Assembly (NCBI RefSeq): GCF_014284235.1
Contig: NZ_JACOGD010000001.1
Span: 496,001 to 560,000 of the forward strand
From: Cognatundibacterium curvum
Lineage (GTDB): Bacteria; Pseudomonadota; Gammaproteobacteria; Burkholderiales; Burkholderiaceae_D
Direction: 5' to 3'
DNA: 64,000 nucleotides
The notes beneath the pieces were generated by a model. It made no database searches and had not been told where the DNA came from. It saw nothing but the letters and a program-made list of their open reading frames with translations. Of this stretch, positions 2,318 to 26,385 are shown piece after piece (the stretch's first letter is position 1; each line of letters opens with the position of its first letter). A program made the translations under genes and the position numbers.

Positions 2318-3752
2318 GCTTACTCCTTTGAGCAGCAGTGAACTGTGTGCTGCTATCACCGTCTGTACGCTCCAAAAATCCAATCTGAGCCAGTACAGGC
2401 ACATCAAACTCGCGCGCCAGGTCTTCAGCGCAGCGTACTTTGCGCTGCATCAGCTCCAACAGAAATGCAAGACTGAAGCCGAACATCAATCCGGCAATCA
2501 GGCCAAATACCAGGTTATTGCGCAGCAGCGGCTTAGCATGTTTTTCGGGCAATTCAGCCCAGCGCATTACAGATGCATTAGAAATCGCGACATTACTGGT
2601 CATGAGTAACTCATCAAATTTTTGTATCGCGGCGTTATACACTTTTTGGACGCTGTCGAGCTGACGCTGATACGAACTGATTACATCGCGGTGACGCTTG
2701 TTTTCAAAGGTTTTTTTCTGATAGCCAGCCAATTCAGCTTCCATCACTTTTTCCTGCTGACGCAAACGCGCCTCAGCAGAATTAACCGAGTCGACCGCCG
2801 TCGTTGACTCACGCTTTAATTTCTCGATCAAAGACTGGCGCTCATCCTGAATCGCAATATATTTCGGATGGCGTGGCCCCAGCGTCGTTTTTGCATTGGC
2901 AAGCTGGGTGTCTAACGCTACCAATGCCGCCTTTAAGCCTGAGATATGGCCTATGCCTGCGATTTCAGGCAAGTCGGAATTGGTGTTGCCCTGCCTGAGC
3001 ATATTCTCCAAGGCCTGCCTTTTGGCCTGCGCCTCGACGCGCTGCAACTGAGTTTCAATCAGGCGGTTACTGAGTACGCCCATCTGGCGTGATTCGACAT
3101 CAGCGCGCTCATCAACATCGACAATCTGATGTTCTTGCTGATAAGCCGTGAGCTTCTTCTGGATATCATCCATCTGACGGCTCAACGTCTCAAGCTGGGC
3201 ATTGTATTGATCACGGCGGGCACGGGCCGGTGCATTTGCCATTTCCAGCGACAGGTCGATGTATGCCTTAATGACCGCATTCACTACATCCCGGGCATGT
3301 GCCGGGTCATGAGAAGAATATTGAATTTCAATGACACGGCTGTTTTTATGCGGCGCGACTTCGATTTTATCGGCGATCGTTTCTGCCAGATGCCGCAAAC
3401 CACGCTGTTCACCATAGCGCGCAATCAGCTTACGTGCCTCGTCAGTATCATGCAGGCCCAGGGCGGCAATCACATGCTCTGCGGCTTTGACGCTTTTCAT
3501 CACATCATATTGGGTTTGCAGATAACTCTCATCCTGCAGGGGATGAAACTGGCGACCCGCAATCGGGTCATTCATTTTATAGTCGATGAATACATCAGCA
3601 TTCGCGACATAGGTCTTGGGGACGACCAGGCTGGCAATCGCCGCCATGACCACCGAAATCACAGTCACGACAGCAATCAGGTTGCGGCGCGCATTGAGCA
3701 TTGCGCCTATCTGGGTAAAAGATAAAATCAGGTCAGCTGAGGGAGAGCGCAT
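2310..3752 (-). CDS. epsF: EpsF-type chain length determinant (Wzz/GumC family)
   Basis: This 480-residue inner-membrane co-polymerase has a Wzz domain at the N-terminus, a first membrane helix near residues 24-46 (LIAVVTVISVVMAAIASLVVP), a long periplasmic coiled-coil part rich in Glu/Gln/Lys/Arg (about 180-370), and a second helix near residues 413-435 preceded by a Pro-rich segment (ELPEKHAKPLLRN). The cytoplasmic kinase is a separate gene (epsG), as in the methanolan-type EpsE-F-G arrangement. It sits 8 bp downstream of epsE and overlaps epsG. It likely sets polymer length in Wzx/Wzy-dependent export. Confidence 0.88.
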   Translation of the reverse strand: MRSPSADLILSFTQIGAMLNARRNLIAVVTVISVVMAAIASLVVPKTYVANADVFIDYKMNDPIAGRQFHPLQDESYLQTQYDVMKSVKAAEHVIAALGLHDTDEARKLIARYGEQRGLRHLAETIADKIEVAPHKNSRVIEIQYSSHDPAHARDVVNAVIKAYIDLSLEMANAPARARRDQYNAQLETLSRQMDDIQKKLTAYQQEHQIVDVDERADVESRQMGVLSNRLIETQLQRVEAQAKRQALENMLRQGNTNSDLPEIAGIGHISGLKAALVALDTQLANAKTTLGPRHPKYIAIQDERQSLIEKLKRESTTAVDSVNSAEARLRQQEKVMEAELAGYQKKTFENKRHRDVISSYQRQLDSVQKVYNAAIQKFDELLMTSNVAISNASVMRWAELPEKHAKPLLRNNLVFGLIAGLMFGFSLAFLLELMQRKVRCAEDLAREFDVPVLAQIGFLERTDGDSSTQFTAAQRSKHV

Positions 3753-3760
3753 CGACTACC

Positions 3761-4690
3761 TTAAAAAATACGTTCATTAACCACTACCACATCTCCTGGC
3801 AGCACAACATCTTTAATATTGGCAGGCATTTCTATCAGTTCGCCATGCTTATCTTTACGATGAATCACGATGCGCGACGAAGAGCCACGCTCAGAAACAC
3901 CGCCACCCACTGCCAGTACCCGCATCACATTCATGGCCTCTTCCATAGGATAGCTACCGGGACGGCGCACTTCACCATACACATAAAAAGTCTTTTGCTG
4001 ACCGACTACCAGCACATCATTCGGCAGAATTTTCTGCATCAGTTTTTCACTATTTTTATTATTTTCAAACTCGATTTGCATGGTATCGACTTCAGCAGCA
4101 TCCTGATCCGCACCTGCATTCTTACGTAATAATTTGACTGACTTGTCCGCACGCGTGGTCAGGCCACCAGCCAGACTCAAAGCATCCAGCACATTCAACT
4201 GCCCCTGCATAGGAAAACGTCCTGGCCGTACTACTTCACCAAAAACTGAAAAATTACGACTGATCTGTTGACCGATACGTACTGCAACCTTGGGGTTGAT
4301 CAGGTACTGCCCCTGCTCTAATTTATTGGCAAACTGAATCGCCACATCCATGGTCGATTTGCCTTTAACTTCCATCGCGCCAACCAAAGGGAGGGTGATA
4401 ATCCCCATCGAGCCCACCACCACATCCGCACTCAGATCTGGCTGACCAAACACAGTAATGATCAGCTGATCGCCCTCGCCAACGACATCACTACGTGTTT
4501 CCATCATTCCGGAATCGGCGCTGTTTTCGATGACGGGCGTTGTCTTTTTGGGCGATGGACTCACTGCTGGCTGATAGGAGAGACTGAAATCCAGCTTTAA
4601 ACGTAATCCGTGCAGTTGCGATGACTCTTCGGCGCAGGCAACCGAAAAAAATGAAGAAAGCAGTATTCCGCAATAACAAGCGCGGAGCAT
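3761..4690 (-). CDS. epsE: EpsE-type outer-membrane polysaccharide export protein (Wza family)
   Basis: The protein has a poly-export domain (VVGEGDQLIITVFGQPDLS..., with GxxxLPLVGxxxVKG) followed by two SLBB-like segments (VFGEVVRPGRFPM and VYGEVRRPGSYPM). Wza-family proteins form the outer-membrane channel for capsule or exopolysaccharide. I place the start at 4690 (309 aa) because this ATG begins a signal peptide (MLRACYCGILLSSFFSVACA) and is preceded by GAAGAG; an in-frame ATG at 4777 would add 29 residues that do not look like a signal. It is the first gene of the minus-strand group epsE-F-G-GT-acyltransferase. Confidence 0.88.
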   Translation of the reverse strand: MLRACYCGILLSSFFSVACAEESSQLHGLRLKLDFSLSYQPAVSPSPKKTTPVIENSADSGMMETRSDVVGEGDQLIITVFGQPDLSADVVVGSMGIITLPLVGAMEVKGKSTMDVAIQFANKLEQGQYLINPKVAVRIGQQISRNFSVFGEVVRPGRFPMQGQLNVLDALSLAGGLTTRADKSVKLLRKNAGADQDAAEVDTMQIEFENNKNSEKLMQKILPNDVLVVGQQKTFYVYGEVRRPGSYPMEEAMNVMRVLAVGGGVSERGSSSRIVIHRKDKHGELIEMPANIKDVVLPGDVVVVNERIF

Positions 4691-5227
4691 GTCACTCTTC
4701 AAATTTACAATTGGTGAAAAAATCATTGAAAACCGATTATTGGGATGGAATTTGCTTATTTTATCGTGCTGCCGCACTTATGATTGCATATTTTTGTCAT
4801 AGAAACAAAATCGCGCCGCAGTTTGGTCGAATTCATTTCCTTGACAACAATTATTCACTGCACAGCACCTAAGCTACCACTCAATTTAAGCTGCTGATAC
4901 AGGATAGGCGCTTGCCTTACCAGTTTGATTTCATCACAGTTTAAACCAGCAAGCTTCTCCCGCGCATTCTCATTTGTACTTGCACAACATTTCTTCAATT
5001 GAAAAATAGTGCAAAAAGTACATTTCCATTTATTCACCATGTTAGCTTAACTCTGCCGAAGGATTTATCTGCGAAGACTCGGGTTTCGCGTCCATTCTGC
5101 TGAATGGCAAAGTGTCAGGCTCAGAACTAAGAACTAAGCCAAGAACAAGCAAGGAAGAAATCCATGCGTCTGATGAAGTTAAGCAAGCCAGAGATGCATT
5201 TATGTGTCCACCTCTCTTAGGAAAACG
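4691..5227. other. Divergent intergenic region between epsE and the lipoprotein gene
   Basis: About 540 bp lie between two divergently transcribed exopolysaccharide-locus genes, so promoters for both directions probably lie here. A TTGACA hexamer occurs at 4841-4846 on the plus strand, but no convincing -10 follows at the right distance. Small open frames (4855-5040 minus; 5164-5220 plus) have no recognisable product and I do not call them genes. The direct repeat GAACTAA-GAACTAA near 5125-5140 is short. Nothing else stands out. Confidence 0.4.
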
Positions 5228-7057
5228 ATGAAAAAGCGATTTGTGATTACCAATGAAAACACTTTTTTTTCTGCTTTACTGTTAATTAGCATCCTGCCTG
5301 GCTGTGGTGGCGACAAAGCCACTGAGGCTGACTTTGTGGCGAGAGCAGGCGCTCAGACTGCGGGCTCGTCGCAGGTCAGCTCACAAGCTCTGCCTGACAC
5401 TTCAGATCAAGTGCCGCTGGCTGCTGCGCCTGATTACCACAGCCTTATCCAACAGGCGCCGCCGGGAAAACAGGCCGGCCTGCTTGCCACCGCGCTAGGT
5501 AAGCCCAACCAGTTATTGCTAGGACTGGGTGTGCAATACCTGTCCGACATTGCCAGTGATGCCGTTGTCATGCCCTACTTTGGAGTGACTAAAATTGATA
5601 TTTATGACCGGTATCTTAATGGCATAGACCCACAGACTTCCTGGGTAGGATGGAATAGCCCGACCGGCGCATACGCCAGTATGGTTGCCAGTGATGCCGC
5701 GAGTTTAGGGGCCGTTCCTATGTACACTTTGTACCAGATGGCCTCGCAAGGTGATGGAAACACCACGTGGCTGACCGATACCACGCTTATGACACAGTAC
5801 TGGAATAATGTACGCACTCTGTTTCAGAAAATACAGGCTACCGGCAAGCCAGCTTTAGTCAATGTAGAGCCAGATTTTTGGGGGTATATCCAACGCATTT
5901 ACAATGCGTCGGGAGTGATCACTGCTTACCAGACCGAGCCAGGCAGGGTCGCCATTGCAGTCGCATCAGCAAACAGCAGCGAATGCAATACCCAGCCCAA
6001 TACAGCGGTAGGCATGGTGTCTTGTATGATTTCGATGGCACGCAACTATGCGCCCAACGCCTATCTCGGCTTCCCGCCCTCAGGATTTCCGGATCTGCTT
6101 GCGCAAGAACCCGCCTTCATGCAAAAGTTAGGCGCTGGCAAAGCTGACTTCGTTGTGATGCAAACATCCGATCGTGATGCCGGCTGTTATCTGAGCAATG
6201 CTGTCGATTGTCGTTCTGCAGGCGGCACCGGCGATATAAGTCAAACCTACTGGGATACTTCGAATTTCCAGTGGGCCTTTTCACAAGCTGCGCAGTACTC
6301 CAGCGGCAGCTACAATGCTGCTGGCGTCTACACACCACCCGTGTACTCACTGCCACTGATATGGTGGCAAACACCGATGGGGACACCGGCCGCCGCCAAT
6401 GGGACAGGGACAGCCAGCGCAACGGCTTCACCCTGGCGTGACAACCGCATGGATTACTTCCTCAATAATCCTGCACAATTGACAGCGATGAATACGTTTG
6501 CTGTCGTGTTCGGGTCAGGCGCTGCATCACAAACGAATTTGAGCAACGATTTCACCAGCACAGGGCAACATCAGTTTGTAGCACTACAAGCCGCTTACAA
6601 AAAAAAACCTGCAAATTTACCCACGGCCGTCCCGGTGTACACAGATAATTTGGCCATTGGCTGGCAGGGAACATGGGGATGGAATGCAAACGTGAACTTT
6701 TCCAGCGCCACCCCGTTGCAGTCGGGTAGTTACGCGATGAATGTCATCACAACCGGTGCCTACGGTGCAGTCGGATTGACCAGTACTACTCCTGTTGCGT
6801 TCAACAGCCCGAACGCGGCCATTCAGCTCTGGGCTTATTCTGCGACTGCCTTGCCTATAGTGCTGATTCTGTGTCCGGTTGAAAATGCTTGCAATGCACA
6901 TGTGACGCTCAACTTACCACCTGCAAAGTGGACTTTCTTCAGTATCCCGGCGTCCAAATTTGGTAATCCCGGTACGATCAAACGGATTAATATTCAATCC
7001 AATTCACCATCTGAAGTGGTTTCTTTTACGATAGACCAGTTGTATGTCGTGAAATAA
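5228..7057 (+). CDS. Secreted lipoprotein of unknown function with a C-terminal carbohydrate-binding-like domain
   Basis: I do not recognise a characterised family. The ATG at 5228 follows TTAGGAAAACG, a good ribosome site, and starts a lipoprotein signal with lipobox LPGC (Cys26); an earlier ATG at 5204 lacks this. The mature part (about 580 aa) is rich in Trp, Tyr, Asn and small residues. Residues about 70-430 carry acidic/aromatic segments such as KIDIYDRYL and NVEPDFWGY, reminiscent of TIM-barrel glycoside hydrolases. The last 130 residues (from VPVYTDNLAIGW) look like a beta-sandwich carbohydrate-binding module. Its place inside the polysaccharide locus supports a role in polymer trimming or binding. 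That role is inference. Confidence 0.55.
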   Translation: MKKRFVITNENTFFSALLLISILPGCGGDKATEADFVARAGAQTAGSSQVSSQALPDTSDQVPLAAAPDYHSLIQQAPPGKQAGLLATALGKPNQLLLGLGVQYLSDIASDAVVMPYFGVTKIDIYDRYLNGIDPQTSWVGWNSPTGAYASMVASDAASLGAVPMYTLYQMASQGDGNTTWLTDTTLMTQYWNNVRTLFQKIQATGKPALVNVEPDFWGYIQRIYNASGVITAYQTEPGRVAIAVASANSSECNTQPNTAVGMVSCMISMARNYAPNAYLGFPPSGFPDLLAQEPAFMQKLGAGKADFVVMQTSDRDAGCYLSNAVDCRSAGGTGDISQTYWDTSNFQWAFSQAAQYSSGSYNAAGVYTPPVYSLPLIWWQTPMGTPAAANGTGTASATASPWRDNRMDYFLNNPAQLTAMNTFAVVFGSGAASQTNLSNDFTSTGQHQFVALQAAYKKKPANLPTAVPVYTDNLAIGWQGTWGWNANVNFSSATPLQSGSYAMNVITTGAYGAVGLTSTTPVAFNSPNAAIQLWAYSATALPIVLILCPVENACNAHVTLNLPPAKWTFFSIPASKFGNPGTIKRINIQSNSPSEVVSFTIDQLYVVK

Positions 7058-15264: not shown

Positions 15265-16380
15265 ATGAGTCTGCTTTTCACCCCAACCCAATTAGGAACA
15301 CTCAAACTCAACAACCGCATTGTGATTGCACCTATGTGCCAGTATTCAGCGCAGGACGGTATCGTCAGTGACTGGCATCTGATGCACTTAGGCAGTCTCG
15401 CGCTGTCCGGTGCAGGCTTGCTGATTATTGAAGCGACTGCTGTAGAACCGGATGGGCGGATTTCCCCGGCCGATGTGGGCTTATGGTCAGATGAAACTGA
15501 AGCAGCCTTAGGCAAAGTATTACAAGCTGTGCGCCGCTACTCCAATATGCCGCTCGCGATTCAACTGGCGCACGCCGGACGTAAAGCATCGAGCCAAATT
15601 CCTTGGGAAGGCGGTCAGTTACTGCAAGCCGAACACGGCGGCTGGTCAACCTGGTCAGCCTCTGCCATTCCACATGGCGCGACTGAAACCCCACCGCTTG
15701 CGCTCGATCAGGCTGGCATCGCACGTGTCAAACGCGCCTTTGTCGATGCCGCAGTACGCGCCCATCGTCTGGGCATAGACAGCATAGAACTGCATGCAGC
15801 CCACGGTTACCTGATGCATCAGTTTTTATCGCCTTTATCCAATCAGCGTGAAGATGAGTACGGCGGCAGTCTGGAAAACCGCATGCGCTTGCCTTTGGAA
15901 ATCGTCGATGCGGTCAAAGCTGCGCTGCCAGCGGATTATCCGGTCGGCGTCAGGATTTCCGCCAGCGACTGGGTCGAAGGCGGCTGGGATCTGGCGCAAA
16001 GTATCGTTCTGGCGCAAGCGCTGGAACAACGCGGCTGCGCGTTTATTCATGTGTCCAGCGGTGGTTTATCACCACGCCAGCAAATCCCGCTGGAACCCGG
16101 CTATCAGGTGCATTTTGCCGCGGCGATTAAAGCTGCGCTCAGCCACTTGCCTGTGATCGCGGTCGGGCTGATTACCGAAGCTGAACATGCGGAACAAATC
16201 CTGCAAGATCAGCAGGCCGACCTGATAGCAATCGCACGTGGCATCCTGTATGACCCGCACTGGCCATGGCATGCCGCTGCCAAGCTGGGCGGCACCGTTG
16301 AGGCCCCGCCACAATACTGGCGCTCTCAGCCACGTGATCAGAAAGCCTTGTTTGGTGAAACCCGCATCGGCGGCCGTTAA
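15265..16380 (+). CDS. NADPH dehydrogenase of the old yellow enzyme family (NamA/YqjM-like)
   Basis: The 371-residue TIM-barrel FMN enzyme begins LFTPTQLGTLKLNNRIVIAPMCQYSAQDG; the Cys in MCQYS is the YqjM-class redox-tuning cysteine. QLAHAGRKAS, the HAAHGYLMHQFLSPLSNQREDEYGGSLENR block and VGLI near the C-terminus are classical OYE motifs. It reduces activated alkenes and other electrophiles with NADPH. The gene is monocistronic between a DUF4124 gene and a strong terminator. Confidence 0.9.
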   Translation: MSLLFTPTQLGTLKLNNRIVIAPMCQYSAQDGIVSDWHLMHLGSLALSGAGLLIIEATAVEPDGRISPADVGLWSDETEAALGKVLQAVRRYSNMPLAIQLAHAGRKASSQIPWEGGQLLQAEHGGWSTWSASAIPHGATETPPLALDQAGIARVKRAFVDAAVRAHRLGIDSIELHAAHGYLMHQFLSPLSNQREDEYGGSLENRMRLPLEIVDAVKAALPADYPVGVRISASDWVEGGWDLAQSIVLAQALEQRGCAFIHVSSGGLSPRQQIPLEPGYQVHFAAAIKAALSHLPVIAVGLITEAEHAEQILQDQQADLIAIARGILYDPHWPWHAAAKLGGTVEAPPQYWRSQPRDQKALFGETRIGGR

Positions 16381-16425
16381 GCCGTAACACCAAGCCTCAG
16401 CCAGGGGCTAAGCGGCAAAAACAAA

Positions 16426-16459
16426 AGCGGGCACCACACTGGTGTCCGCTTTTTGTTTT
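16426..16459 (+). terminator. Rho-independent terminator after the OYE gene
   Basis: AGCGGGCACC at 16426-16435 pairs with GGTGTCCGCT at 16441-16450 (one G-U on the plus strand) around a 5-base loop, followed by TTTTGTTTT. Confidence 0.88.
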
Positions 16460-16529
16460 GTGCCTGTTCTCTTTAATTTGAAAGACCATGGTTGCTGGCC
16501 TGAATACAGACAAATCAGCAGCTACTGTA

Positions 16530-19172
16530 TTAATTCAGCTTTTTCAGCGCCTCGCGCACATAAGTGACATTACTGCTGTTCGGCGCCAGCTCCAGATAGC
16601 TTTGATAGGCTTTTCTTGCCTTCTCTTTGTCAGCGCTACGCGCCAGCGCATCGCCCAGGTTCATGTAAGCGATGGCCCGTGAAGGATCCATGCTAATGGT
16701 GTTTTCAAACCAGCGTGCCGCCTCAGGATACTTTTGCTGTTTAAAATAAACAAAGCCCAGATTGTTGGCCGCCAGTGCAAAGTCAGGCCGGTACTTGAGC
16801 GCCTCGGTGAACGCCGCTTCCGCCTCGGCATATTGCTTCTCTTTGTAGAATTGCAGACCCTGGTCATTCGCTCTTTGTGCCAATTGACGTGAGGAGCCCT
16901 GCACCAGCTTAGGGGCGGAAATTTTCTGTTCACCGCCATTGAGGTTCTTAATCACAATAGGCGCCTCGCTGCCCGGCTTGGCGGCCACCACACTGAGTTT
17001 ATTATTCAGTGCGATTTCTTCTGAAGACAGCTGATTGGTTTTGGCACTTAAATATTCCGTTTCGGCACGCAGTTCAAATATAAATTCGCCCCCCTCTGAG
17101 CCTGGCAAGCTGCCAAAGGCCGGCGTCTGCGCTGACATGCCCGCAACTGCAGGTGCTGTATACGCGGCCAGCTCAGTGGCGGTAATGATGCCATCGCCAT
17201 TTAAATCCGCTTTACCGTTCAAGGCCTGCAGCAAAGTCCAGGTGAACACAGAATGTCCATTCGGGCCACCATCTGCCACTAACTGATCGGCACCACCGGC
17301 AGTCAGCATCTGACGCCCCAGGCGTTTCGCATTATCTTTCAGGAAGGCCGCATTACCACCACGCGTAAGTCCCAGCCCGCTATAACAGGCATCCATGACA
17401 AAGAACACATGTTTAGCCTGCAGATTTTCTGCAATATTCTGCAAATCCGTCATGGGAATCGCATCGACAGACAACTGCGCCGGATCAGAATCAACCGGAA
17501 TGATATACCCCAGATTACGTCCCGAACTGAGCTGACGGGTAGCACCATGTCCCGCAAAAAAGATAAAGACGCGATCATCTTTTTTCAGTTTGCCATGACC
17601 TAACTGATCATGAAATGCGGCCAGTATATGATTGCGCGTGGCTTCCGCATTACTCAGCGTGATCACCTTCTCTCTAGCAAAACCAAAGCGGTTGATTAAG
17701 GTGTCGCGGATCGCATTGGCATCCTGTACTGCATACTGCAGCTTAGGCCATTTCTGATAATCGTTAATGCCGATCACCACGGCCCAGCTATCCTGATACT
17801 CGCTGCCCAGACTGACTTTTTCCGGTGCCGCTTGACGCTCCTTGCCGACCTTGAATTCACTGCCATCCCAGGCCGCAAAGCGATAACCATCCGCAATCAG
17901 TTTATCCAGCACCAGCGGCAAGGCCTTGACGGTACGTTCATGAATATCATGGAACAGGATGATGCCGCGCTGCTCTTTTTCGACTGAGGACAGCACACGT
18001 TCAACGATAGAATTAGGCACCGGGTCGGCCCAGTCCAGCGAATCGATATTCCACATCACAGAGCGCAGCCCCAGCTTGCTCAATAACTCCATGCCCTCTT
18101 TGTTCTTCGCACCGTAAGGAAAGCGAAATAAAGGCGAGCGGCTGGGATCTATCGCTTTGAGTAACTGATCGGTCTGTCCGATTTCGGCACGCAGATTGTC
18201 GCCACTCTCTTTCGACAACAAAGCGTGACTGTAGCTGTGATTGGCTAAGGCATGGCCTGCTGCTTTCAGACTTTTGCTGATGTCCGCATTTTTATTCAGC
18301 TTTTCCTTGCCCTGAGCATCAATACTGCCGACGTTACGACCGACTTCAAAAAAGACGGCAGGCACATTATATTGCTTGAGTATCGCGGCGATTTCCTGGG
18401 TATAACTGGCATGCGGACCATCATCGAAACTCAGCACCACGGTTTTCGGCGGCAAACCACGGCCGAATATCTCTTTTTCAGCACTCGCATCCGGAATCTC
18501 CGGATAAGGCAGAATCACACCGTAATCTTTCAATATCTGCTCGCGCTGATAAATTTTCCTGAGCTTGGTCAGATAGTCATCCCACTTCTCACGTTTAAGC
18601 TCAATGGAGCGGGTTTCAAAGCGCGCGAAAATCGCCTTGAGTTCCTGGTCGTAGTTTTGCTCGATTTCGGCCAGCGCACTCAAATCTTCCGAGATACGCT
18701 TATGCTGTTTGACTGCTGGCAGCGTCTGTTCTTTTGCCACCAGGCGCTGCAAATACGTGAGTACCTCGCGGAAGGCAAGGCGGTCGGCATCGTATAAGTT
18801 GTCGCCTGATTCTATGTAATTGAGTATGCCGTCCACATAACTGAGGCGCTGACTGGCGCTCAGGCTGGATGTTTGCTCCAGCCTTGCCTCCAGCTTTTTC
18901 AAACGCGCCAGATTATCGTGGAATAAGGCGCTGCCTACCCGTATCGCTTCTTTGCGTTCTTTCTCATTCAAGGTTTTTTCATCCGCCAGCAAGACGATGG
19001 TCTGGCGGTAGGCCTTGAGCAAGGCAGGTAATTCTTCCGGCAACTCAGTCTGTGCATCCGCAGCCTGAGCAAGTACCTTAGCGGCACCCAAAGGAGTGGA
19101 TTGATAGAGATAAGCGGCGCCAGCAATGCCGCTCAGGCTTATCGCAGCGGCAATCAAATAGTTGAATTTCAT
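16530..19172 (-). CDS. Fusion of polysaccharide deacetylase, caspase-like peptidase and TPR repeats
   Basis: This 880-residue exported protein has an N-terminal membrane anchor or signal (residues 4-23) and a helical region to about 235. A NodB-type deacetylase domain follows (about 243-440), with SFDDGP at 248-253, NHSYSH (His312, His316) and RFPYG at 350-354. Then comes a C14 caspase-like domain (about 460-700) with the His542 dyad residue in AGHG and Cys596 in DACYSG. An EF-hand-type loop DLNGDGIITATE sits at 656-667, and three TPR units at about 765-867. All catalytic residues look intact in both enzymes. It is monocistronic on the minus strand. Joining a cell-wall or polysaccharide deacetylase to a metacaspase-like protease suggests envelope surveillance or processing, which is inference. 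Confidence 0.85.
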   Translation of the reverse strand: MKFNYLIAAAISLSGIAGAAYLYQSTPLGAAKVLAQAADAQTELPEELPALLKAYRQTIVLLADEKTLNEKERKEAIRVGSALFHDNLARLKKLEARLEQTSSLSASQRLSYVDGILNYIESGDNLYDADRLAFREVLTYLQRLVAKEQTLPAVKQHKRISEDLSALAEIEQNYDQELKAIFARFETRSIELKREKWDDYLTKLRKIYQREQILKDYGVILPYPEIPDASAEKEIFGRGLPPKTVVLSFDDGPHASYTQEIAAILKQYNVPAVFFEVGRNVGSIDAQGKEKLNKNADISKSLKAAGHALANHSYSHALLSKESGDNLRAEIGQTDQLLKAIDPSRSPLFRFPYGAKNKEGMELLSKLGLRSVMWNIDSLDWADPVPNSIVERVLSSVEKEQRGIILFHDIHERTVKALPLVLDKLIADGYRFAAWDGSEFKVGKERQAAPEKVSLGSEYQDSWAVVIGINDYQKWPKLQYAVQDANAIRDTLINRFGFAREKVITLSNAEATRNHILAAFHDQLGHGKLKKDDRVFIFFAGHGATRQLSSGRNLGYIIPVDSDPAQLSVDAIPMTDLQNIAENLQAKHVFFVMDACYSGLGLTRGGNAAFLKDNAKRLGRQMLTAGGADQLVADGGPNGHSVFTWTLLQALNGKADLNGDGIITATELAAYTAPAVAGMSAQTPAFGSLPGSEGGEFIFELRAETEYLSAKTNQLSSEEIALNNKLSVVAAKPGSEAPIVIKNLNGGEQKISAPKLVQGSSRQLAQRANDQGLQFYKEKQYAEAEAAFTEALKYRPDFALAANNLGFVYFKQQKYPEAARWFENTISMDPSRAIAYMNLGDALARSADKEKARKAYQSYLELAPNSSNVTYVREALKKLN

Positions 19173-19579
19173 GAGTTAATAATTGGCAGGTAGTATGGAT
19201 ACAACACAGACGATATGGTAGGTGAAAGCTGTAGCTCTGTGGGTTGCGGACAAGATGAAAATTGTAAAGTTTCAGAAACGCTTTGCCAGCGACAACGTCC
19301 GGTGAACATCAGCCACGCGCTATGCAAACCGAGGGCGCGAACAATTTAGGCGTTGCAAACATGAACTACAAGCTGAGTTTATGTGCGATTGCGACAACTA
19401 GGTTTTTATACAACATTGTATTTTTTAAATGCAAAAAACATTCTAAAAATCAAAAACTCCGTGCTAGAGTCGCCTCGCTATTGCATAAAAGCATAATTTC
19501 CTGAATATCATGCCTTTTGCATAGCCTCCCCCTACACCGAAGCATCCCGTGTCTGAACTGACTGAACAAGGAGATACCT
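19173..19579. other. Divergent intergenic region before the ferritin-like/MNIO operon
   Basis: About 400 bp separate the fusion gene (minus) from the ferritin-like gene (plus). The second half is AT-rich. Weak plus-strand promoter-like elements occur: TTGCAT near 19480 followed after 16-17 bases by an AATAT element. AAGGAG at 19569-19574 is a strong ribosome site for the ATG at 19580. I saw no clear operator palindrome and no credible gene. Confidence 0.35.
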
Positions 19580-21640
19580 ATGTATTCAGCTGTCCCAGAA
19601 GCACCGCAAGAAGCAATCAAAAATCGCCCGTTGGAATTTTTCGCGACCGATAAAGCTGCCGTGCAAGCCATTGCTCAGGCTGCAGTCAGCGTGGAATTAT
19701 TTACCATTCCGGTTTACATGAATTCCATGTATTCCATCTACGGCACCCATCAGATTAATTCCAAAGGCAATACCTATTACAAAGGCCGTCAATGGCCAGG
19801 GATGTCAACCAGTGCGCATCCGCATACTGCCAATGAACGCGCCTTTAATGTGATTTTCAGTGTCTTCATCCAGGAAATGCTGCATCTGCAGATGGCAGCC
19901 AATCTGGCGACTGCAATCGGTGTCAAACCCCAGTTTACCGCAGGGTCCGGTCTGCAAAATGCGGAACGTGGCTGGACTTGCTACGGCCCGCAAAAGAGCG
20001 TCATCCCCTGTATCGTGGACCTGAAAGATACCTGCACTTATCACAACGTGAAAGTGAATCTGGAAGCACTGAATCACAATCAGATACAGCTGTTTCTGGC
20101 AATAGAACAGCCAGAAAATCAAGCGCGTGAAGAGTTACGTCAGAATGCGCACAAGTATTTCCCGGATGTGCCGTTTGCTGGCTGGACCCCATCCAAGGGC
20201 TTTGCTGAGCTGCCTCTGTTCGGTACCATTGGTTACATGTATGAATGCTATGCGCGTTACATCAGCATGGAATATAGCGATGGTCAGACTTTATGGCAAA
20301 AACTGTTTGTGAATGGATCTGTCCAGCAGGACATGTTTAATACGAATAACAGTTCCCACCCGAAAAAAGAATACCCCCATTTTTCTACGCTGTTCGGGCC
20401 GGAAGAGCAGGATGGCGGCGGTACGCATTCACATAATAAAGCGATCGATATGATGTGTGCCATCACCGACCAGGGTGAAGGCAATGCGGCCGGTATTCGC
20501 CATTACCGTCGCACCCATCTGCTACGCGCAGTGCAGCCGGATTATCGCGAAAACGATGAGGCGCTCAAAGCCGATTATCCATCCTATAACGGTGAAGGCA
20601 AACCGGTAGCCTCAGCCGATGCCGCAGCACGCTTCCACAGCGCAGCCTTTGATCATTATGAACGTTTCCAGGATGTGAAAAAAATTCTGGAATCACGCAG
20701 TGAAATTCCTTCGGAACGCCTGACCACCTGGGAACAATGGCATGCACAGGGCCACCACTGGACCAGCGATATGCTGATCAATCATGAATATGTGGCGGCC
20801 AAGGCACCCGCCAATATCCCTAAACCTGCAGATGTCGCAGGTGCACTCAACCGCCTGAAAGCGGCAGGCACCAGCACATTGAAGACCCTGAGTCAGGTTT
20901 CAGCCGGTGCTATTTATGGCATTACCTCTGTGCTCGATGAATACTGGCAACAGCAAAGTACCGGCTTCCCCTACCCGTCTATGGTGGGTTCGGGCGACAG
21001 GATCGCGATCTGCTGGGCCATTACCGGTCAATCACCCGACCTGTCGGTCTCTGTACCGCTGCCAGATCCGGAAACCCTGTATCACGCTTGCCAGGGTATG
21101 CAATTGAGTGGCAAAGACAGCAGCCATCAATGTGCAGCGATAGAGGTCTATCATACCTGTCGCGGCTCCAATGGCTGCCATGCTCAGGGTGGGTGTGGCT
21201 TTGCCCAGCTCGATAGCGGCGGTGGATCTTGCGGCAGTTCATCCTGTGGCAGCGTGAGCAACAAATCCGCATCCGCCAAATCTGCCACAACGGAGACCGC
21301 CGGACAAAATCTGTGTGGTGGTCCGACACCCGGCCCGGCACCATCGGATTTATACAGTGCGCCCAGCGACAATAAGTGCAAGTCGTTTGGGGGCTGTGCA
21401 GTACCGATTTCCGCTTCCCAGTTGTATCCGGAGAGTGGCAGCATGACACTGTATAACTTCGAAGACCGGCCACCACATCGCTCTGTACCATTGAATGAAA
21501 CCATGCCTTTCCATCAGGGTGAAAACGTCTACGATCTGGCCTGGCAAGCTTATGCCAAGGTAATGAAAGCCAGAAAGCAGGAACCGGGAACACGGCCGGC
21601 ACCAACTGATTTACGTCTTGCGTTGCCGCCATCAACCTGA
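19580..21640 (+). CDS. Ferritin-like (VioB-type) protein with cysteine-rich C-terminal tail
   Basis: The 686-residue protein opens with a ferritin-like helical domain of the VioB-associated type. Glu39 lies in [17 protein letters not shown], Glu99 and His102 form an ExxH motif in [10 protein letters not shown], and a Glu lies in YMYECYARY (222); these are candidate diiron ligands. The middle region (300-450) has no recognised domain. The tail from 504 to 606 holds ten cysteines: C504, 518, 527, 533, 539, 551, 556, 579, 600, 606. They sit in Gly/Ser-rich context with [14 protein letters not shown] and CKSFGGC. No signal peptide is visible. The MNIO and DUF2063 genes follow at 26 and 14 bp. Violacein genes are absent, so a violacein role is not supported. 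The tail may be an MNIO substrate (inference). Confidence 0.75.
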
Positions 21641-21666
21641 TTTTTACAAGTTATTCACGCACTGAG

Positions 21667-22602
21667 ATGAAGACAACTATCACGTCAGGATCAAGCAGCG
21701 AAACACGCCTGGGCCTCCCGCATCTGGGTCTGGGTGTGGGTCTGCGGCATGTTCATTTTCAACACATACTCGAGCATGGCCCCGGGGTCGACTGGTTTGA
21801 GATTATTTCTGAAAACTTTATCGATCACCATGGTTTTGCGAGGCATGTATTGAATCAAATCGCAGAACATACACCAGTTGTAATGCATGGCGTATCCCTG
21901 TCTGTCGGCAGCTGCGATCCACTCGACATGTTGTATTTGTCCAAACTCAGGCAACTCGCATCGGAAATCCAGCCAGCCTGGATTTCCGATCATTTATGCT
22001 GGACTGGAGTTCAGGGCATCAACAGCCACGATTTATTGCCCATGCCATTAAACGAAGAATCGTTCCGCCATGTGGCAACCAGAATCCGTCGGGTACAGGA
22101 TTTTTTACAACGACCACTGATACTGGAAAACCCCAGTACTTATCTCGAATTTCAGCAATCTGAATTCACCGAATCTGCCTTCCTCGCCGCCCTGTGCCAG
22201 GAAACCGGTTGCGGCCTGCTGCTGGATGTGAACAACGTCTATGTCTCAGCCTATAACCATGGCTATGATCCACGTGCCTATTTAATGGAGTTACCGGCTG
22301 ATCGTATTGTACAGATACATCTGGCGGGGCCAACAGACTGTGGTGACTATCTGATTGATACCCATGACCAGCCTGTCCCGACTGCAGTCTGGGCTCTGTA
22401 TGCGCTGGCCCATCAACTCACCGGAGGAGTATCAACCCTGTTGGAATGGGATGCGAAAATTCCCGCTTATCCGGAATTACTGGATGAATTACATAAAGCA
22501 AGACAGGTTATTAACGGAAATTTACCTGAACTGCCCGCAGTCACCGCAAAAACGGCACATGCGCATGCGTTGGCAGGTTCCTTGCAAGCCTTGATGACCT
22601 GA
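21667..22602 (+). CDS. DUF692 multinuclear non-heme iron oxygenase (MNIO; BufB/HvfB/MbnB family)
   Basis: This 311-residue TIM-barrel protein carries the DUF692 metal-binding pattern: His74 in VMHGVSLS, Asp108-His109 in ISDHLCW, Glu154-Asn155 in LENPSTY, Asp187-Asn190 in LLDVNNVY, His218 in IHLAG, the DTHD segment at 231-234 and Glu260 in LLEWD. Characterised members (MbnB, TglH, HvfB/BufB) use a multi-iron centre to convert cysteines of peptide substrates into oxazolone/thioamide, thiooxazole or related groups. Its partner would be the DUF2063 protein encoded 14 bp downstream. No separate small precursor peptide is seen beside it; the upstream ferritin-like protein carries the only Cys-rich tail. 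Confidence 0.9.
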
Positions 22603-22616
22603 TTTATTTTCCGACT

Positions 22617-23582
22617 ATGAAGCCTAATCTGAATGATGCATCTGTGGCAAAAACTGAAGTAAGGCTTGCGCAAATACAGGCCTGGTTCATGACCGCGATC
22701 AGCCATGCTGGCGGATATCGTGCGGGCGTGCACGCCGCGCAGCAAATGTTTTCGCTCAATGAGACAGCGCTGTTAAAGCCGGGTCATGAACAGGCCTCGC
22801 GTCTGCCTATCTATGCCAGTGGCTATCTGTTGCGTTTGCAGGAGTGCCTGGAAGCGGATTACCCGGTACTGATGCGTACCTTAGGGAAGGAATTGTTTCA
22901 TTTTTTTTGCCGCCAGTATCTGGCCCGTCATCCATCGCATTCTCCCTCTTTATTTGATCTGGGCGCAGGGTTTCCGCAATTTTTGCAGCAATCCCAGCCA
23001 GCCAGCGGCGAACATGAAAACGATCTGTTGTTTGTCTTCCCGGTCGAGCTGGCATTTCTGGAGCGCGCTTATACCGAGGTATTGCGTGCGCCCGGGCTGG
23101 AAATCCAGTCTGAGACCGGCAGCGCATACGATCAGGAAACGCCCGTCCCGGCCCTGCTGACACTTATGTCAGATCTGCACCCTGCCGTGGAACTGAATGC
23201 AGAATCCAATGTCAGTACCAATCCAAGCTGGTCGGCGGCGCCCTGCTTGCGTTTACTGTCGGTGCAGTTTCCTCTGGCAGACTTCTGGCAAGCTGCCAAG
23301 GCCGGGACCGAAAACAATACCGATCCGGTACAGCCGGAACCCCAACCCGGCTGGCTGGCCGTGAGCCGAATTCGTTATCGTGTACTGCTGTATAAGCTAC
23401 AGGAATGGCAATTTCATGTTCTGGTTAGCTTGCAGCAAGCAGAAGCCCCGGTAAACGATGTGGAATGGCTCGCCAGACAAGTCGCTGTGCATACCGGACT
23501 GAGCGACATTGCCACTACAGATGCACTGCGCTTGTGGTTGCCAGTGGCTGCACAAAACAATCTGGTGGTGCGCATGCCTTAA
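22617..23582 (+). CDS. DUF2063 protein, partner of the MNIO enzyme (BufC/HvfC-like)
   Basis: The N-terminal ~140 residues match DUF2063: RLPIYASGYLLRLQECLEADYPVLMRTLGKELFHFFCRQYLARHPSHSPSL is spread across 63-113, followed by LFDLGAGFPQFL. The rest is the alpha/beta C-terminal part typical of HvfC/BufC, with a RIRYRVLLYKLQEWQFHVLVSL segment near 247. In studied systems these proteins act with the MNIO enzyme to recognise or present the cysteine-rich substrate. The gene is the last of a three-gene plus-strand operon, and its stop directly abuts the stop of the convergent histidine kinase gene with no spacer. Confidence 0.85.
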   Translation: MKPNLNDASVAKTEVRLAQIQAWFMTAISHAGGYRAGVHAAQQMFSLNETALLKPGHEQASRLPIYASGYLLRLQECLEADYPVLMRTLGKELFHFFCRQYLARHPSHSPSLFDLGAGFPQFLQQSQPASGEHENDLLFVFPVELAFLERAYTEVLRAPGLEIQSETGSAYDQETPVPALLTLMSDLHPAVELNAESNVSTNPSWSAAPCLRLLSVQFPLADFWQAAKAGTENNTDPVQPEPQPGWLAVSRIRYRVLLYKLQEWQFHVLVSLQQAEAPVNDVEWLARQVAVHTGLSDIATTDALRLWLPVAAQNNLVVRMP

Positions 23583-24530
23583 CTATGCAGCAGGTAGAAG
23601 CGGCAATTGCAGACTGAAGCAACTACCTACACCCACCTGACTTTGGACACTCAGGCTGCCACCATGCTTGACCGCAATGCTGTAACTCATGGACAAACCC
23701 AGCCCTGTACCGTGTCCGACATCCTTGGTCGTGAAAAACGGATCAAATATCCTTTGCAGATTTTCTGCGGCGATACCGCAGCCAGAGTCAATGACTTCGA
23801 CGATGGCCCAATCCCTGTCCTGTTCGGTTTGCGGCCTGAGCACGAGCCGTATCAAGCCATTTCCATGACAGGCATCGACCGCATTATTGAGTAAATGGCT
23901 TAACACCAGCTGAATTTCCAGCTCATTGCCGACGACGACAATATCTGATCCCAGAATTTTTTCGATATGACATTGCTGCTTATGCTCACCCAGCGTCGCC
24001 AGTGCAATCGCAATACTGCTGTGCAGGCTGATACTTTGCGCTTGTTGCTGACCGAGTTCAGTGTATTGCTGTAGTTTACCAATCAGATCGCGTACCCTTA
24101 GCAAGCCATGATAAGTCTCATCAAGCAGAATAGGCAACTCTCCCTGCAGGTAGGGCAAATCCAGCTGCTCCAGCTTTGTATGCAAACTGTTCAGTTGCAT
24201 AGAATCCGGACTGCTCCCCAGAGTCTGTACACTTTGAGCAAGCGTGATTAATTGTTCTGACCATTCACGCAGACACTTGAGATTACTCAGGCAGAACCCA
24301 ATCGGATTATTGATTTCATGCGCCAGTCCTGCAGTGAGCTGCCCCATGGCAGCCAGTTTTTCGGTCTGCAGCAACTGGTTACGGGTATGCTGCAAATGAG
24401 CCAGCGTTTCATTTAACTCCAGCACTTTATCGTACAAAACCCGTGTTTTTTCATCCAGCAGTTTTTCCGCCAGCAGCCTGGCCTGGCGCTCACGCTGATA
24501 AGCTCGCAGATATGCGTCAGCTTCGCTCAT
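23583..24530 (-). CDS. Cytoplasmic sensor histidine kinase paired with H-NOX
   Basis: The 315-residue kinase has no membrane segment. An N-terminal coiled coil (residues ~8-60, ERQARLLAEKLLDEKTRVLYDKVLELNE) leads into the phospho-acceptor box GLAHEINNPIGF with His71. The ATPase domain shows the N box LLNNAVDA (213-220), G1 DSGCGI (248-253), F box FDPFFTTK (262-269) and G2 GTGLGLS (274-280). The start overlaps the H-NOX stop by 4 bp. H-NOX-associated kinases are controlled by the NO-bound state of the heme protein. No response regulator is encoded nearby, so its target lies elsewhere. Confidence 0.87.
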   Translation of the reverse strand: MSEADAYLRAYQRERQARLLAEKLLDEKTRVLYDKVLELNETLAHLQHTRNQLLQTEKLAAMGQLTAGLAHEINNPIGFCLSNLKCLREWSEQLITLAQSVQTLGSSPDSMQLNSLHTKLEQLDLPYLQGELPILLDETYHGLLRVRDLIGKLQQYTELGQQQAQSISLHSSIAIALATLGEHKQQCHIEKILGSDIVVVGNELEIQLVLSHLLNNAVDACHGNGLIRLVLRPQTEQDRDWAIVEVIDSGCGIAAENLQRIFDPFFTTKDVGHGTGLGLSMSYSIAVKHGGSLSVQSQVGVGSCFSLQLPLLPAA

Positions 24531-25075
24531 GGCTGATGGAAGTGTATATGTAAGCGGCAGCGTTCCGCACCATCATGCATACATTCGGGATGCTCTATCT
24601 GTATTTGTTGTGAAAACTGTGCCGCCGCCCCTTTAATCAAACCCACAGCGGCATGACACAGCTTACGTCTGGACTGGTAATACATCACCAGCATTTGCTC
24701 ATTGCTATTGTCATAGTCGAAGCTGGGCAGATAAGCATCCGGATACAAGCGCCGCACTTCCTTATGAATCACTTTATCAACTGACAGCAAAAAAGGACGT
24801 AAATCATTTAGCTGACGCAATTCCGGCGGAAGCGAGTTGTAGAGACGGGAAAACAAAAATTCGCCAAATGCCTCAACTAACTGCGTGGCTGGCAAATTTG
24901 TTTTTTTAGATAGCAGAGCTACCAGCCCCAACAATTCTGCATCCTCATATTGCTGTCCGGCCGTATAAATACCGCCAGAGACAGGATTAAGTTCAGTCAG
25001 CACTTCGTCCCACATATGCATGCCCAGTTTCTCGATGACCATGTCGGACAGCGCGGTAAAAATTGATCCTTGCAT
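24527..25075 (-). CDS. H-NOX heme nitric-oxide sensor
   Basis: The ATG at 25075 (182 aa) is chosen because AAAGG lies 7 bases upstream and the protein then starts MQGSIFTALSDMVIEKLGM, the usual H-NOX start. A longer frame to 25129 adds unrelated residues. His104 (DKVIHKEVRRLYP) matches the proximal heme ligand, Pro117 the conserved distorting proline, and Y133-x-S135-x-R137 (YQSRR) the propionate-binding motif. The residues after this motif, KLCHAAVGLIKG, show no obvious distal tyrosine, which favours NO over oxygen binding (inference). It forms a two-gene operon with the histidine kinase. Confidence 0.9.
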   Translation of the reverse strand: MQGSIFTALSDMVIEKLGMHMWDEVLTELNPVSGGIYTAGQQYEDAELLGLVALLSKKTNLPATQLVEAFGEFLFSRLYNSLPPELRQLNDLRPFLLSVDKVIHKEVRRLYPDAYLPSFDYDNSNEQMLVMYYQSRRKLCHAAVGLIKGAAAQFSQQIQIEHPECMHDGAERCRLHIHFHQP

Positions 25076-25413
25076 ACATGAGCCTTTCACGAAGTGAATG
25101 AGCAAAACACAGATGCTTCCTGCGTACATTCAGCACCTGATGGCTACTTCAGCTTATGTGAAAAGTTTCCGAACCACAAATTTCTTTTTTGAAATTTCCA
25201 GGATTTTTGCAGTGATTAACATTAGCCCGATGCCGATGGCAGTCTTTCGCTACCCAAATGAACCCAAATGAAAACAGCCATGACAAGCTTGTGATCTGGC
25301 TCTTCATGGCTGTCAGTAAGGGCATTGAAAAGCACCCTTGCTCAGAAAGCGTTTGCTACGGTGTGGTAGCGACTTCGGAGATTTTCGTGCTAATCAACTG
25401 TGTGTAAAGTGCC
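25076..25413. other. Intergenic region between SPFH gene and H-NOX gene
   Basis: Both flanking genes are on the minus strand. The stretch should hold the H-NOX promoter and the end of the SPFH transcript. A tandem ACCCAAATGA-type 10-mer occurs twice at about 25251-25270, and a long-loop inverted repeat lies beside it. No gene is visible. Confidence 0.35.
25274..25313 (-). terminator. Possible terminator of the NfeD-SPFH transcript
   Basis: ACAGCCATGA at 25274-25283 pairs perfectly with TCATGGCTGT at 25304-25313 across a 20-base loop. On the minus strand it is followed by TTTTCATTT, a weak T-run. It lies 100 bp downstream of the SPFH gene stop. Confidence 0.45.
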
Positions 25414-26385
25414 TCAGACTTTGCTGCTGACTTGATTCGTGACGACTTTAGCCGCAGCAGGACTGGCAGCAGGCTGAGTTTTAATTACTTGCATTGCGGT
25501 CGCAATCAAACCGCTCATATCGCCGAGGTTAGCCGGTACGATCAAGGAATTATTGGTCTTCGCCAGATTACCGAACGCGCCTACATACTGCTCCGCCACC
25601 TTCAGATTGACCGCATCAGCGCCGCCCGGAGACTGGATCGCCGCTGCAGTCTTACGTATCGCTTCAGCGCTCGCTTCAGCGATGGATAAAATTGCAGCTG
25701 CCTGACCTTCGGCACGGTTAATCGATGCTTGCTTTTCACCCTCAGAGCGGGCAATAGCAGCTTCACGTTCACCGTTAGCGATATTAATCTGTTCCTGCTT
25801 ACGGCCTTCGGAAGCGGCGATCAGTGCACGCTTTTCACGCTCGGCTGTAATCTGCGCCTGCATCGCATGTAAAATCTCTTTAGGTGGCGTTAAGTCTTTG
25901 ATTTCATAGCGCAATACCTTCACGCCCCAGTTTGCGGCAGACTCATCGATCGCACTCACGATTGTGGTATTGATGTGATCGCGCTCTTCAAAGGTTTTGT
26001 CCAGTTCCATCTTACCGATCACAGAGCGCAAGGTAGTTTGCGCGAGCTGAGTAATCGCCGCAATGTAATTCGATGAACCATACGAGGCGCGCATTGCGTC
26101 AGTAATCTGAAAATATAAAATCCCATCTACCTGCAATTGCGTATTGTCTTTAGTAATACAAACCTGGGGCGGTACATCCAATGGGATTTCTTTGAGGCTG
26201 TGTTTGTAAGCGATGCGGTCTATGAAAGGAACCACAATATTCAAACCTGGTCCTAAAGTTGCATGATATTTCCCCAGACGTTCCACCACCCAGGCATGCT
26301 GTTGAGGCACGACGTTAATCGTTTTGATGACGAACACCAGAGCCATGATGAACAGTATCAGAGCCACTCCACCGATATTTTCCAT
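25414..26385 (-). CDS. SPFH/stomatin-like membrane protein (paraslipin, QmcA-like)
   Basis: The ATG at 26385 (323 aa) follows AAAGGT and gives a membrane helix at residues ~4-24 and then the band-7 domain: VPQQHAWVVERLGKYHATLGPGLNIVVPF is split across 25-54, and KMELDKTFEERDHIN and WGVKVLRYEIKDLTPP are diagnostic. A coiled coil rich in Glu/Ala/Arg (ERKQEQINIANGEREAAIARSEGEKQ region) follows. SPFH proteins form large membrane-anchored cages. The partner NfeD gene lies 106 bp upstream on the same strand, the usual pairing. The frame extending to 26448 has no ribosome site and is less likely. Confidence 0.9.
   Translation of the reverse strand: MENIGGVALILFIMALVFVIKTINVVPQQHAWVVERLGKYHATLGPGLNIVVPFIDRIAYKHSLKEIPLDVPPQVCITKDNTQLQVDGILYFQITDAMRASYGSSNYIAAITQLAQTTLRSVIGKMELDKTFEERDHINTTIVSAIDESAANWGVKVLRYEIKDLTPPKEILHAMQAQITAEREKRALIAASEGRKQEQINIANGEREAAIARSEGEKQASINRAEGQAAAILSIAEASAEAIRKTAAAIQSPGGADAVNLKVAEQYVGAFGNLAKTNNSLIVPANLGDMSGLIATAMQVIKTQPAASPAAAKVVTNQVSSKV

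Follow-up and report, generated by a model that had tools for sequence, protein, structure and literature searches.

Multinuclear non-heme iron-dependent oxidative enzymes (MNIOs) are known for their chemistry on small peptides, and it has been published, as a prediction, that they act on real proteins too. The closest described systems to the locus analysed here are the Bufferin 2 operons (BufA2-BufB-BufC, from the Cys-Lys group of captophorins), in which the gene of a small precursor is followed by those of an MNIO and of a partner carrying a DUF2063 domain and an RRE, the recognition element of ribosomally synthesized and post-translationally modified peptides (RiPPs). The same order was found in a stretch of 64,000 nucleotides from Cognatundibacterium curvum (GCF_014284235.1, contig NZ_JACOGD010000001.1, positions 496,001 to 560,000; “the window” hereafter), where a large ferritin-like protein (FLP) precedes an MNIO scoring over the BufB cut-off and a DUF2063/RRE partner. 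Judged from sequence, this three-gene cassette probably represents a bufferin-type pathway in which the substrate is a cysteine-rich loop of the FLP, apparently in the cytosol.

Modification of proteins by MNIOs, and not of peptides only, was proposed by Antoine et al. in 2025 (PMC12452194). The fused or large substrates proposed in the available text of that paper are fusions of MerC with Buf1 or with Buf2, of Buf1 with cytochrome c and an FGE-sulfatase, and of Buf_EGKC with an EF-hand, together with the TIGR04222 proteins, membrane proteins bearing C-proximal Cys segments. Like the FLP, these substrates join MNIO Cys segments to other protein domains, but each of them is either a membrane protein or carries a bufferin or EGKC domain, and the FLP differs in being ferritin-like. 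Domain-fused MNIO substrates are therefore already proposed in print; a ferritin-like one was found neither in the available text of PMC12452194 (0 occurrences of “ferritin”) nor in searches of the openly licensed literature, supplements aside in both cases, and in PMC8224329, in which MNIO and ferritin-like both occur, the latter stands in the reference list only.

The ferritin-like protein, its loop and the linkage to an MNIO

The sequence-only reading had described three tightly spaced plus-strand genes, with gaps of 26 bp (FLP/MNIO) and 14 bp (MNIO/partner), and both their coordinates (Table 1) and their Pfam families were confirmed. All three products scored over the cut-off: PF12902 for the FLP (E 1.1e-23), PF05114 for the MNIO (E 6.9e-108) and PF09836, or DUF2063, for the partner (E 1.4e-20; 73.8 bits vs. 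27.2). The nearest sizeable genes on either side lie on the opposite strand, so the cassette appears to consist of three genes. The FLP belongs to PF12902 by Pfam gathering score and by fold, and its candidate ferritin metal ligands are conserved: E39, E99, H102, E176, E300 and, beyond the PF12902 match, H359 (putative ligand). A stand-alone ferritin-like protein, CC_0557 of Caulobacter (3hl1), has a chain of 317 aa, a length that leaves no room for the loop and C-terminal segment described below.

Ten cysteines of the FLP lie within residues 504-606, and an eleventh at 478. They had been read as a C-terminal tail, a description that stood for the cysteines themselves but not for their position: in the AlphaFold2 model, built on a shallow 40-row alignment, residues 501-610 had low confidence (mean pLDDT 24-60 in 10-residue blocks) and were followed by a folded segment, residues 611-686 (block pLDDT 79-89). 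A terminal tail was accordingly rejected, and the cysteine-rich part is treated here as an internal loop. Seven loop residues were invariant in 79/79 distinct loop-bearing proteins (H502, C504, H525, C527, C533, C539 and C606); C518 (78 proteins), C600 (75), C579 (65) and C551 (58) were less strictly kept, C556 was less conserved in the manner of C551 and C579, and the linkers between the conserved Cys and His varied in length and sequence. By sequence comparison, the conservation of the loop is more than chance. The 79 proteins, window included, were obtained by merging 128 loop-bearing loci at identical last 220 residues, with a pattern that demands the loop and cannot count loop-less FLPs.

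An MNIO gene came next on the same strand in all of the 77 distinct loop-bearing proteins for which downstream sequence was available; for the other two of the 79 (L008, L045), the contig stops at the FLP gene. Co-occurrence of the cysteine-rich part with an MNIO, which the sequence-only reading had put forward as a check, was thus borne out, and a loop without an MNIO was not found. The suggestion that the MNIO acts on part of the FLP, and not on a small peptide, is supported by this linkage and by the absence of a bufferin-like open reading frame (ORF): small ORFs of this kind (40-160 aa, three motif patterns) numbered 0 in 59 FLP loci including the window, a search that a motif-free or unlinked precursor would escape.

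The FLP search over genome contigs of 84,980 species gave 58 loci, by record titles 57 from Proteobacteria and 1 from an uncultured bacterium. Counting the genome of the window in each case, the FLP was present in 14 of 60 relatives, and the loop profile was found in 3/398 genomes of the phylum and in 31/294 of the family, with the MNIO next in all 31. Loop-bearing FLPs with an MNIO occurred in Beta-, Alpha- and Gammaproteobacteria (by titles) and in one viral contig, and a Pseudoalteromonas replicon contained all three cassette genes. Near FLP relatives without the loop were not seen among the 72 rows of the FLP alignment (whole-FLP search with an E ceiling of 0.001, the weakest match having about 31% identity), which was made from 77 loci after L015-L019 had been dropped as second gene pieces, and which holds some genes twice, from genomes present in two collections. 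In one locus (L174, G711), the FLP was split into two ORFs in different frames beside an intact MNIO, by sequencing error or decay.

PF12902 itself was found in 17/398 genomes of the phylum, own genome included, 3 of them with loop and MNIO. The other 14, loop-less, showed no MNIO within the 6.4-13.5 kb examined around each; they include three short marginal matches (L092-L094) and five loci in which the contig ends inside that stretch (L183, L191 and L194, and, within 1-4 kb, L192 and L193).

The MNIO, its partner and the likeness of the loop to BufA2

The MNIO of the window passes the NCBIfam equivalog model NF050167, MNIO_BufB (355.5 bits vs. a cut-off of 310). DUF2063 and RRE folds are both present in the partner, which passed the RRE-fold domain test but was below the cut-off of NF050145, the HvfC family (45.7 bits vs. 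142). With a Cys-containing gene directly before the MNIO and the partner directly after it, the operon is of the A-B-C type. Two further MNIOs are encoded in the genome, and ahead of each lies a small precursor of its own whose N-terminus looks signal-like; neither operon shows an FLP. One precursor is BufA2 by NCBIfam (98 bits vs. 60) and the other (L130) is BufA1-like by sequence, the sole NCBIfam match listed for it being a sub-threshold one to BufA2 (31.4 bits). The objection that the sequence-only reading had raised against itself, a small Cys-rich peptide that would be the true substrate, thus found no support: the three motifs gave no such ORF at the 59 FLP loci, and each of the two other MNIOs has a precursor of its own.

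In a tree of 34 FLP-linked and 24 other MNIOs, from which four long-branch rows had been dropped, the FLP-linked rows formed one clade (support 100/99), present in all 200 bootstrap trees. In a tree of another chosen subset (31 FLP-linked and 28 other MNIOs), with EGKC-linked rows as a further group, the FLP-linked MNIOs adjoined the BufA2-linked ones, weakly (84/55); rows were labelled Buf1 or Buf2 by inspection of the ORFs upstream of each MNIO. A separate observation concerns BufA2-type operons at L129 (G000:C11) and L120 (G011), in which the MNIO frame, at 592 and 607 aa, is roughly double the normal length and no partner match is listed beside it; fusion of MNIO and partner would be a guess.

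There is a resemblance between the loop and BufA2, and it is clearest in a second, divergent type of FLP. For the window FLP, comparison of the loop profile with the BufA2 profile by hhalign gave a probability of 67.8%, and permuted BufA2 columns scored as high in 0/200 cases when free and in 1/200 with the Cys columns fixed; the motifs aligned with BufA2 are of the form C-x-G-x-N-x-C. The BufA1 profile matched the loop weakly (6.7%, vs. 86% between the BufA1 and BufA2 profiles), so that the likeness is to BufA2. The second type was found in three genomes (G155, G572 and G625; loci L178, L180 and L145, the last being the same gene as L095), with a PF12902 body and the MNIO and partner next to it; in the order of G155, the loop profile was found in 1/78 genomes, G155 itself. 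Its body is distant from that of the window FLP (26% identity in the alignment for G155, L095; short local matches of about 32-33% for L178 and L180), it has an extra Cys-containing C-terminus, and its loop is closer to BufA2: the segment H-x-C-M-G-L-N-S-C, followed by further spaced Cys, reached 92.6% in hhalign, no permutation scored as high (0/200, Cys fixed or free), and the NCBIfam BufA2 model touched the segment in L178 (E 0.014, 15.6 bits vs. a cut-off of 60). On these profile comparisons, the loop may be either a descendant of BufA2 or a product of convergence on a BufB-type recognition motif.

The FLP is, on the other hand, unlike a Bufferin 2 precursor in several respects. It is large, at 686 aa beyond the small size expected of a bufferin precursor (559 to about 790 aa among relatives, ORF starts not curated), it has no visible N-terminal signal peptide (judged by eye only), and its Cys segment is internal. 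The window FLP gave no match to NF050166, the BufA2 model, and the MNIOs linked to FLPs, as described above, are a clade of their own.

Gene layout and surroundings of the cassette

The features of the cassette are collected in Table 1. At this locus, the closest named relative is U. rugosum, with 96% over the FLP.

Table 1. Features of the FLP cassette, in positions of the window (gene coordinates from the ORF list).
Feature	Position	Strand	Basis
GGAG, Shine-Dalgarno-like, ahead of FLP	19570-19573		
FLP, ferritin-like protein with internal Cys-rich loop, 686 aa	19580..21640	+	ORF, Pfam, AlphaFold2
PF12902 ferritin-like domain, FLP residues 33-306	19676..20497	+	
Cys-rich loop, FLP residues 500-607, proposed MNIO substrate region	21077..21400	+	low pLDDT, conservation, BufA2 resemblance
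Folded C-terminal segment, FLP residues 608-686, ends LRLALPPST	21401..21637	+	pLDDT, conserved residues
MNIO (DUF692), BufB-type, 311 aa	21667..22602	+	PF05114, NF050167, clade of FLP-linked MNIOs
PME-type-1 partner, DUF2063 domain and RRE, 321 aa	22617..23582	+	
RRE-like C-terminal domain of partner, residues 203-321, expected substrate holder	23223..23579	+	

A conserved fourth gene was not found across the FLP loci, with an ORF choice that favoured long frames and that small genes could escape; the clusters common to locus groups outside the three genes consisted chiefly of frames from the same stretch that overlapped or ran on the opposite strand. By eye, a LysR-like gene recurs at the FLP loci of Janthinobacterium (7 loci) and Chromobacterium (1 locus). 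Alignment of the upstream regions of six FLP loci gave no clear common element, promoter-like and terminator-like counts were at chance level, and Rfam at gathering score gave no match in positions 16000-26000 of the window. Upstream of the cassette and divergent from it, positions 16530-19172 (minus strand) encode an 880-aa protein with polysaccharide deacetylase, caspase-like (Peptidase C14) and TPR repeat regions; downstream, histidine kinase and heme-NO-binding (HNOB/V4R) genes (23583-25129, minus strand) are convergent with the operon, the end of the histidine kinase gene directly abutting the partner gene.

The viral contig mentioned above (IMGVR_UViG_3300041409_000508, L179), a predicted phage contig from an uncultivated virus, has 71,198 bp and carries the FLP and the MNIO at 3429-6576, beside a phage terminase (phrog_9, E 6.4e-57) and an HNH endonuclease. 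Relatives of the terminase were found in 1,525 phage records at under 60% identity, mostly from phages of Mycobacterium, Gordonia, Arthrobacter and Propionibacterium. For the FLP of L179, the phage collection gave no relative. The record gave no DUF2063 match; a 53-aa ORF overlapping the end of the MNIO, without a Pfam match, looks by eye like the start of a partner. The MNIO falls within the FLP-linked clade, on a long branch. As a single contig, L179 can be a misassembly.

Proposed pathway and alternative explanations

In the pathway that we favour, the cassette follows the A-B-C order of bufferin genes, and the large ferritin-like metalloprotein would stand where those operons have the small precursor. 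The DUF2063 partner would dock on the FLP through its RRE domain, and the MNIO would oxidise several conserved loop Cys to thiooxazole-type heterocycles, with C504, C518, C527, C533, C539, C600 and C606 as candidates. A thiooxazole corresponds to a loss of about 4 Da per Cys, and for fontiphorin and bufferins a mass loss and absorbance at 302-305 nm are reported. The modified loop would remain attached to the cytosolic FLP: attachment is expected because the loop is flanked by folded parts on both sides and the cassette has neither a protease, an exporter nor a visible signal peptide. The outcome would be a ferritin-like protein equipped with a soft-metal chelate, copper being the likeliest metal, that would buffer metal in the cytosol or supply a second site assisting the di-metal site of the ferritin fold. 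A partial analogy is offered by the LodA/LodB quinoproteins, in which, according to the available text of PMC4417212, an oxidase encoded in the same operon matures residues of a large enzyme; unlike in the FLP cassette, the chemistry is that of cysteine tryptophylquinone and the enzymes are different. Modification, sites, metal and function are what we infer here. Of these, the function is the least secure, with copper buffering as one possibility and a second metal site in a ferritin-like oxidase as another. That a loop rewritten by the MNIO, with thiooxazole-type ligands, works with the ferritin di-metal site, for example in copper-dependent oxidation or metal hand-over, is put forward tentatively.

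Several points weigh against this pathway. DUF2063-type partners accompany exported precursors with a signal peptide, as far as the available text of PMC12452194 goes, and the FLP, without a visible one, departs from that pattern. The likeness of the window loop to BufA2 is short and modest, and neither Pfam nor NCBIfam has a model that matched the loop region. Copper is suggested by analogy, because neither a fourth conserved gene nor a regulatory signal was found, and the HxC pairs of the loop could also be an ordinary metal site. The loop-less PF12902 proteins are distant from the FLP (25-32% identity in local matches), and the trees of the protein body disagree: in a tree of 33 rows, the two loop-bearing types split and a single clade was rejected (p-AU 0.0009), with long-branch warnings, while without three long loop-less rows, with fewer type I rows and with the loop cut off, the two types grouped together (93/89). 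Loop and MNIO may either have joined more than one FLP lineage or have been inherited together in one, as old companions. Since the body trees disagree on a single loop-bearing lineage, the contrast between loop-bearing and loop-less proteins cannot show that the MNIO serves the loop.

Inheritance within one lineage would also fit an explanation in which the loop is an ordinary Cys/His segment of a ferritin-like oxidase, binding zinc, an iron-sulfur cluster or copper, and the MNIO and its partner act on an unlinked substrate of the same pathway. Its HxC pairs and regularly spaced cysteines are of the kind that commonly binds metals; the linkage to the MNIO in 77/77 cases, the 0/59 loci with a bufferin-like small ORF and the BufA2 resemblance in permutation tests argue against it, as does the model, in which the loop was not folded as a site, albeit on the shallow alignment, and we regard it as improbable. 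The FLP could instead be a tailoring enzyme, a di-metal oxidase working with the MNIO on a peptide encoded elsewhere, its loop being regulatory or for docking. The pigment enzyme VioB holds a PF12902-type domain, and the VioB model TIGR04492, with no match in the window FLP, gave a short and far sub-threshold match in the second FLP type (27.1 bits vs. 1250 in L178), which together with the conserved candidate metal-site residues would suit an enzyme. The FLP occupies, however, the precursor position of the A-B-C order, its MNIOs form a separate clade, and the two other MNIO operons of the genome have their own precursors and show no FLP, all of which makes a tailoring role quite improbable.

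A further possibility is a sub-case of the favoured pathway and does not exclude it: the MNIO would modify the loop without forming thiooxazoles, through a different reaction on Cys such as carbon excision or cross-linking. MNIO chemistry is varied in the available text of PMC13097082 and the FLP-linked clade is distinct, which is consistent with this outcome. The MNIO of the window exceeds, on the other side, the BufB equivalog cut-off, FLP-linked MNIOs group, weakly, with BufA2-linked ones, and MNIOs with a partner of type 1 are suggested to yield 5-thiooxazoles as a general rule and to serve in copper detoxification (PMC13097082, PMC12452194); we therefore consider a different reaction rather doubtful.

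Under the favoured pathway, the FLP cassette is a well-defined case of an MNIO acting beyond small peptides, with a short list of invariant candidate Cys and a body that has a relative of solved fold, and it makes the question of whether MNIOs modify enzymes directly testable. If the proposal is true, a built-in, ribosomally encoded metal ligand would have been added to ferritin-like proteins; and if the loop works with the di-metal site, RiPP chemistry would be a cofactor-building step for an enzyme, beyond its role in small metallophores.

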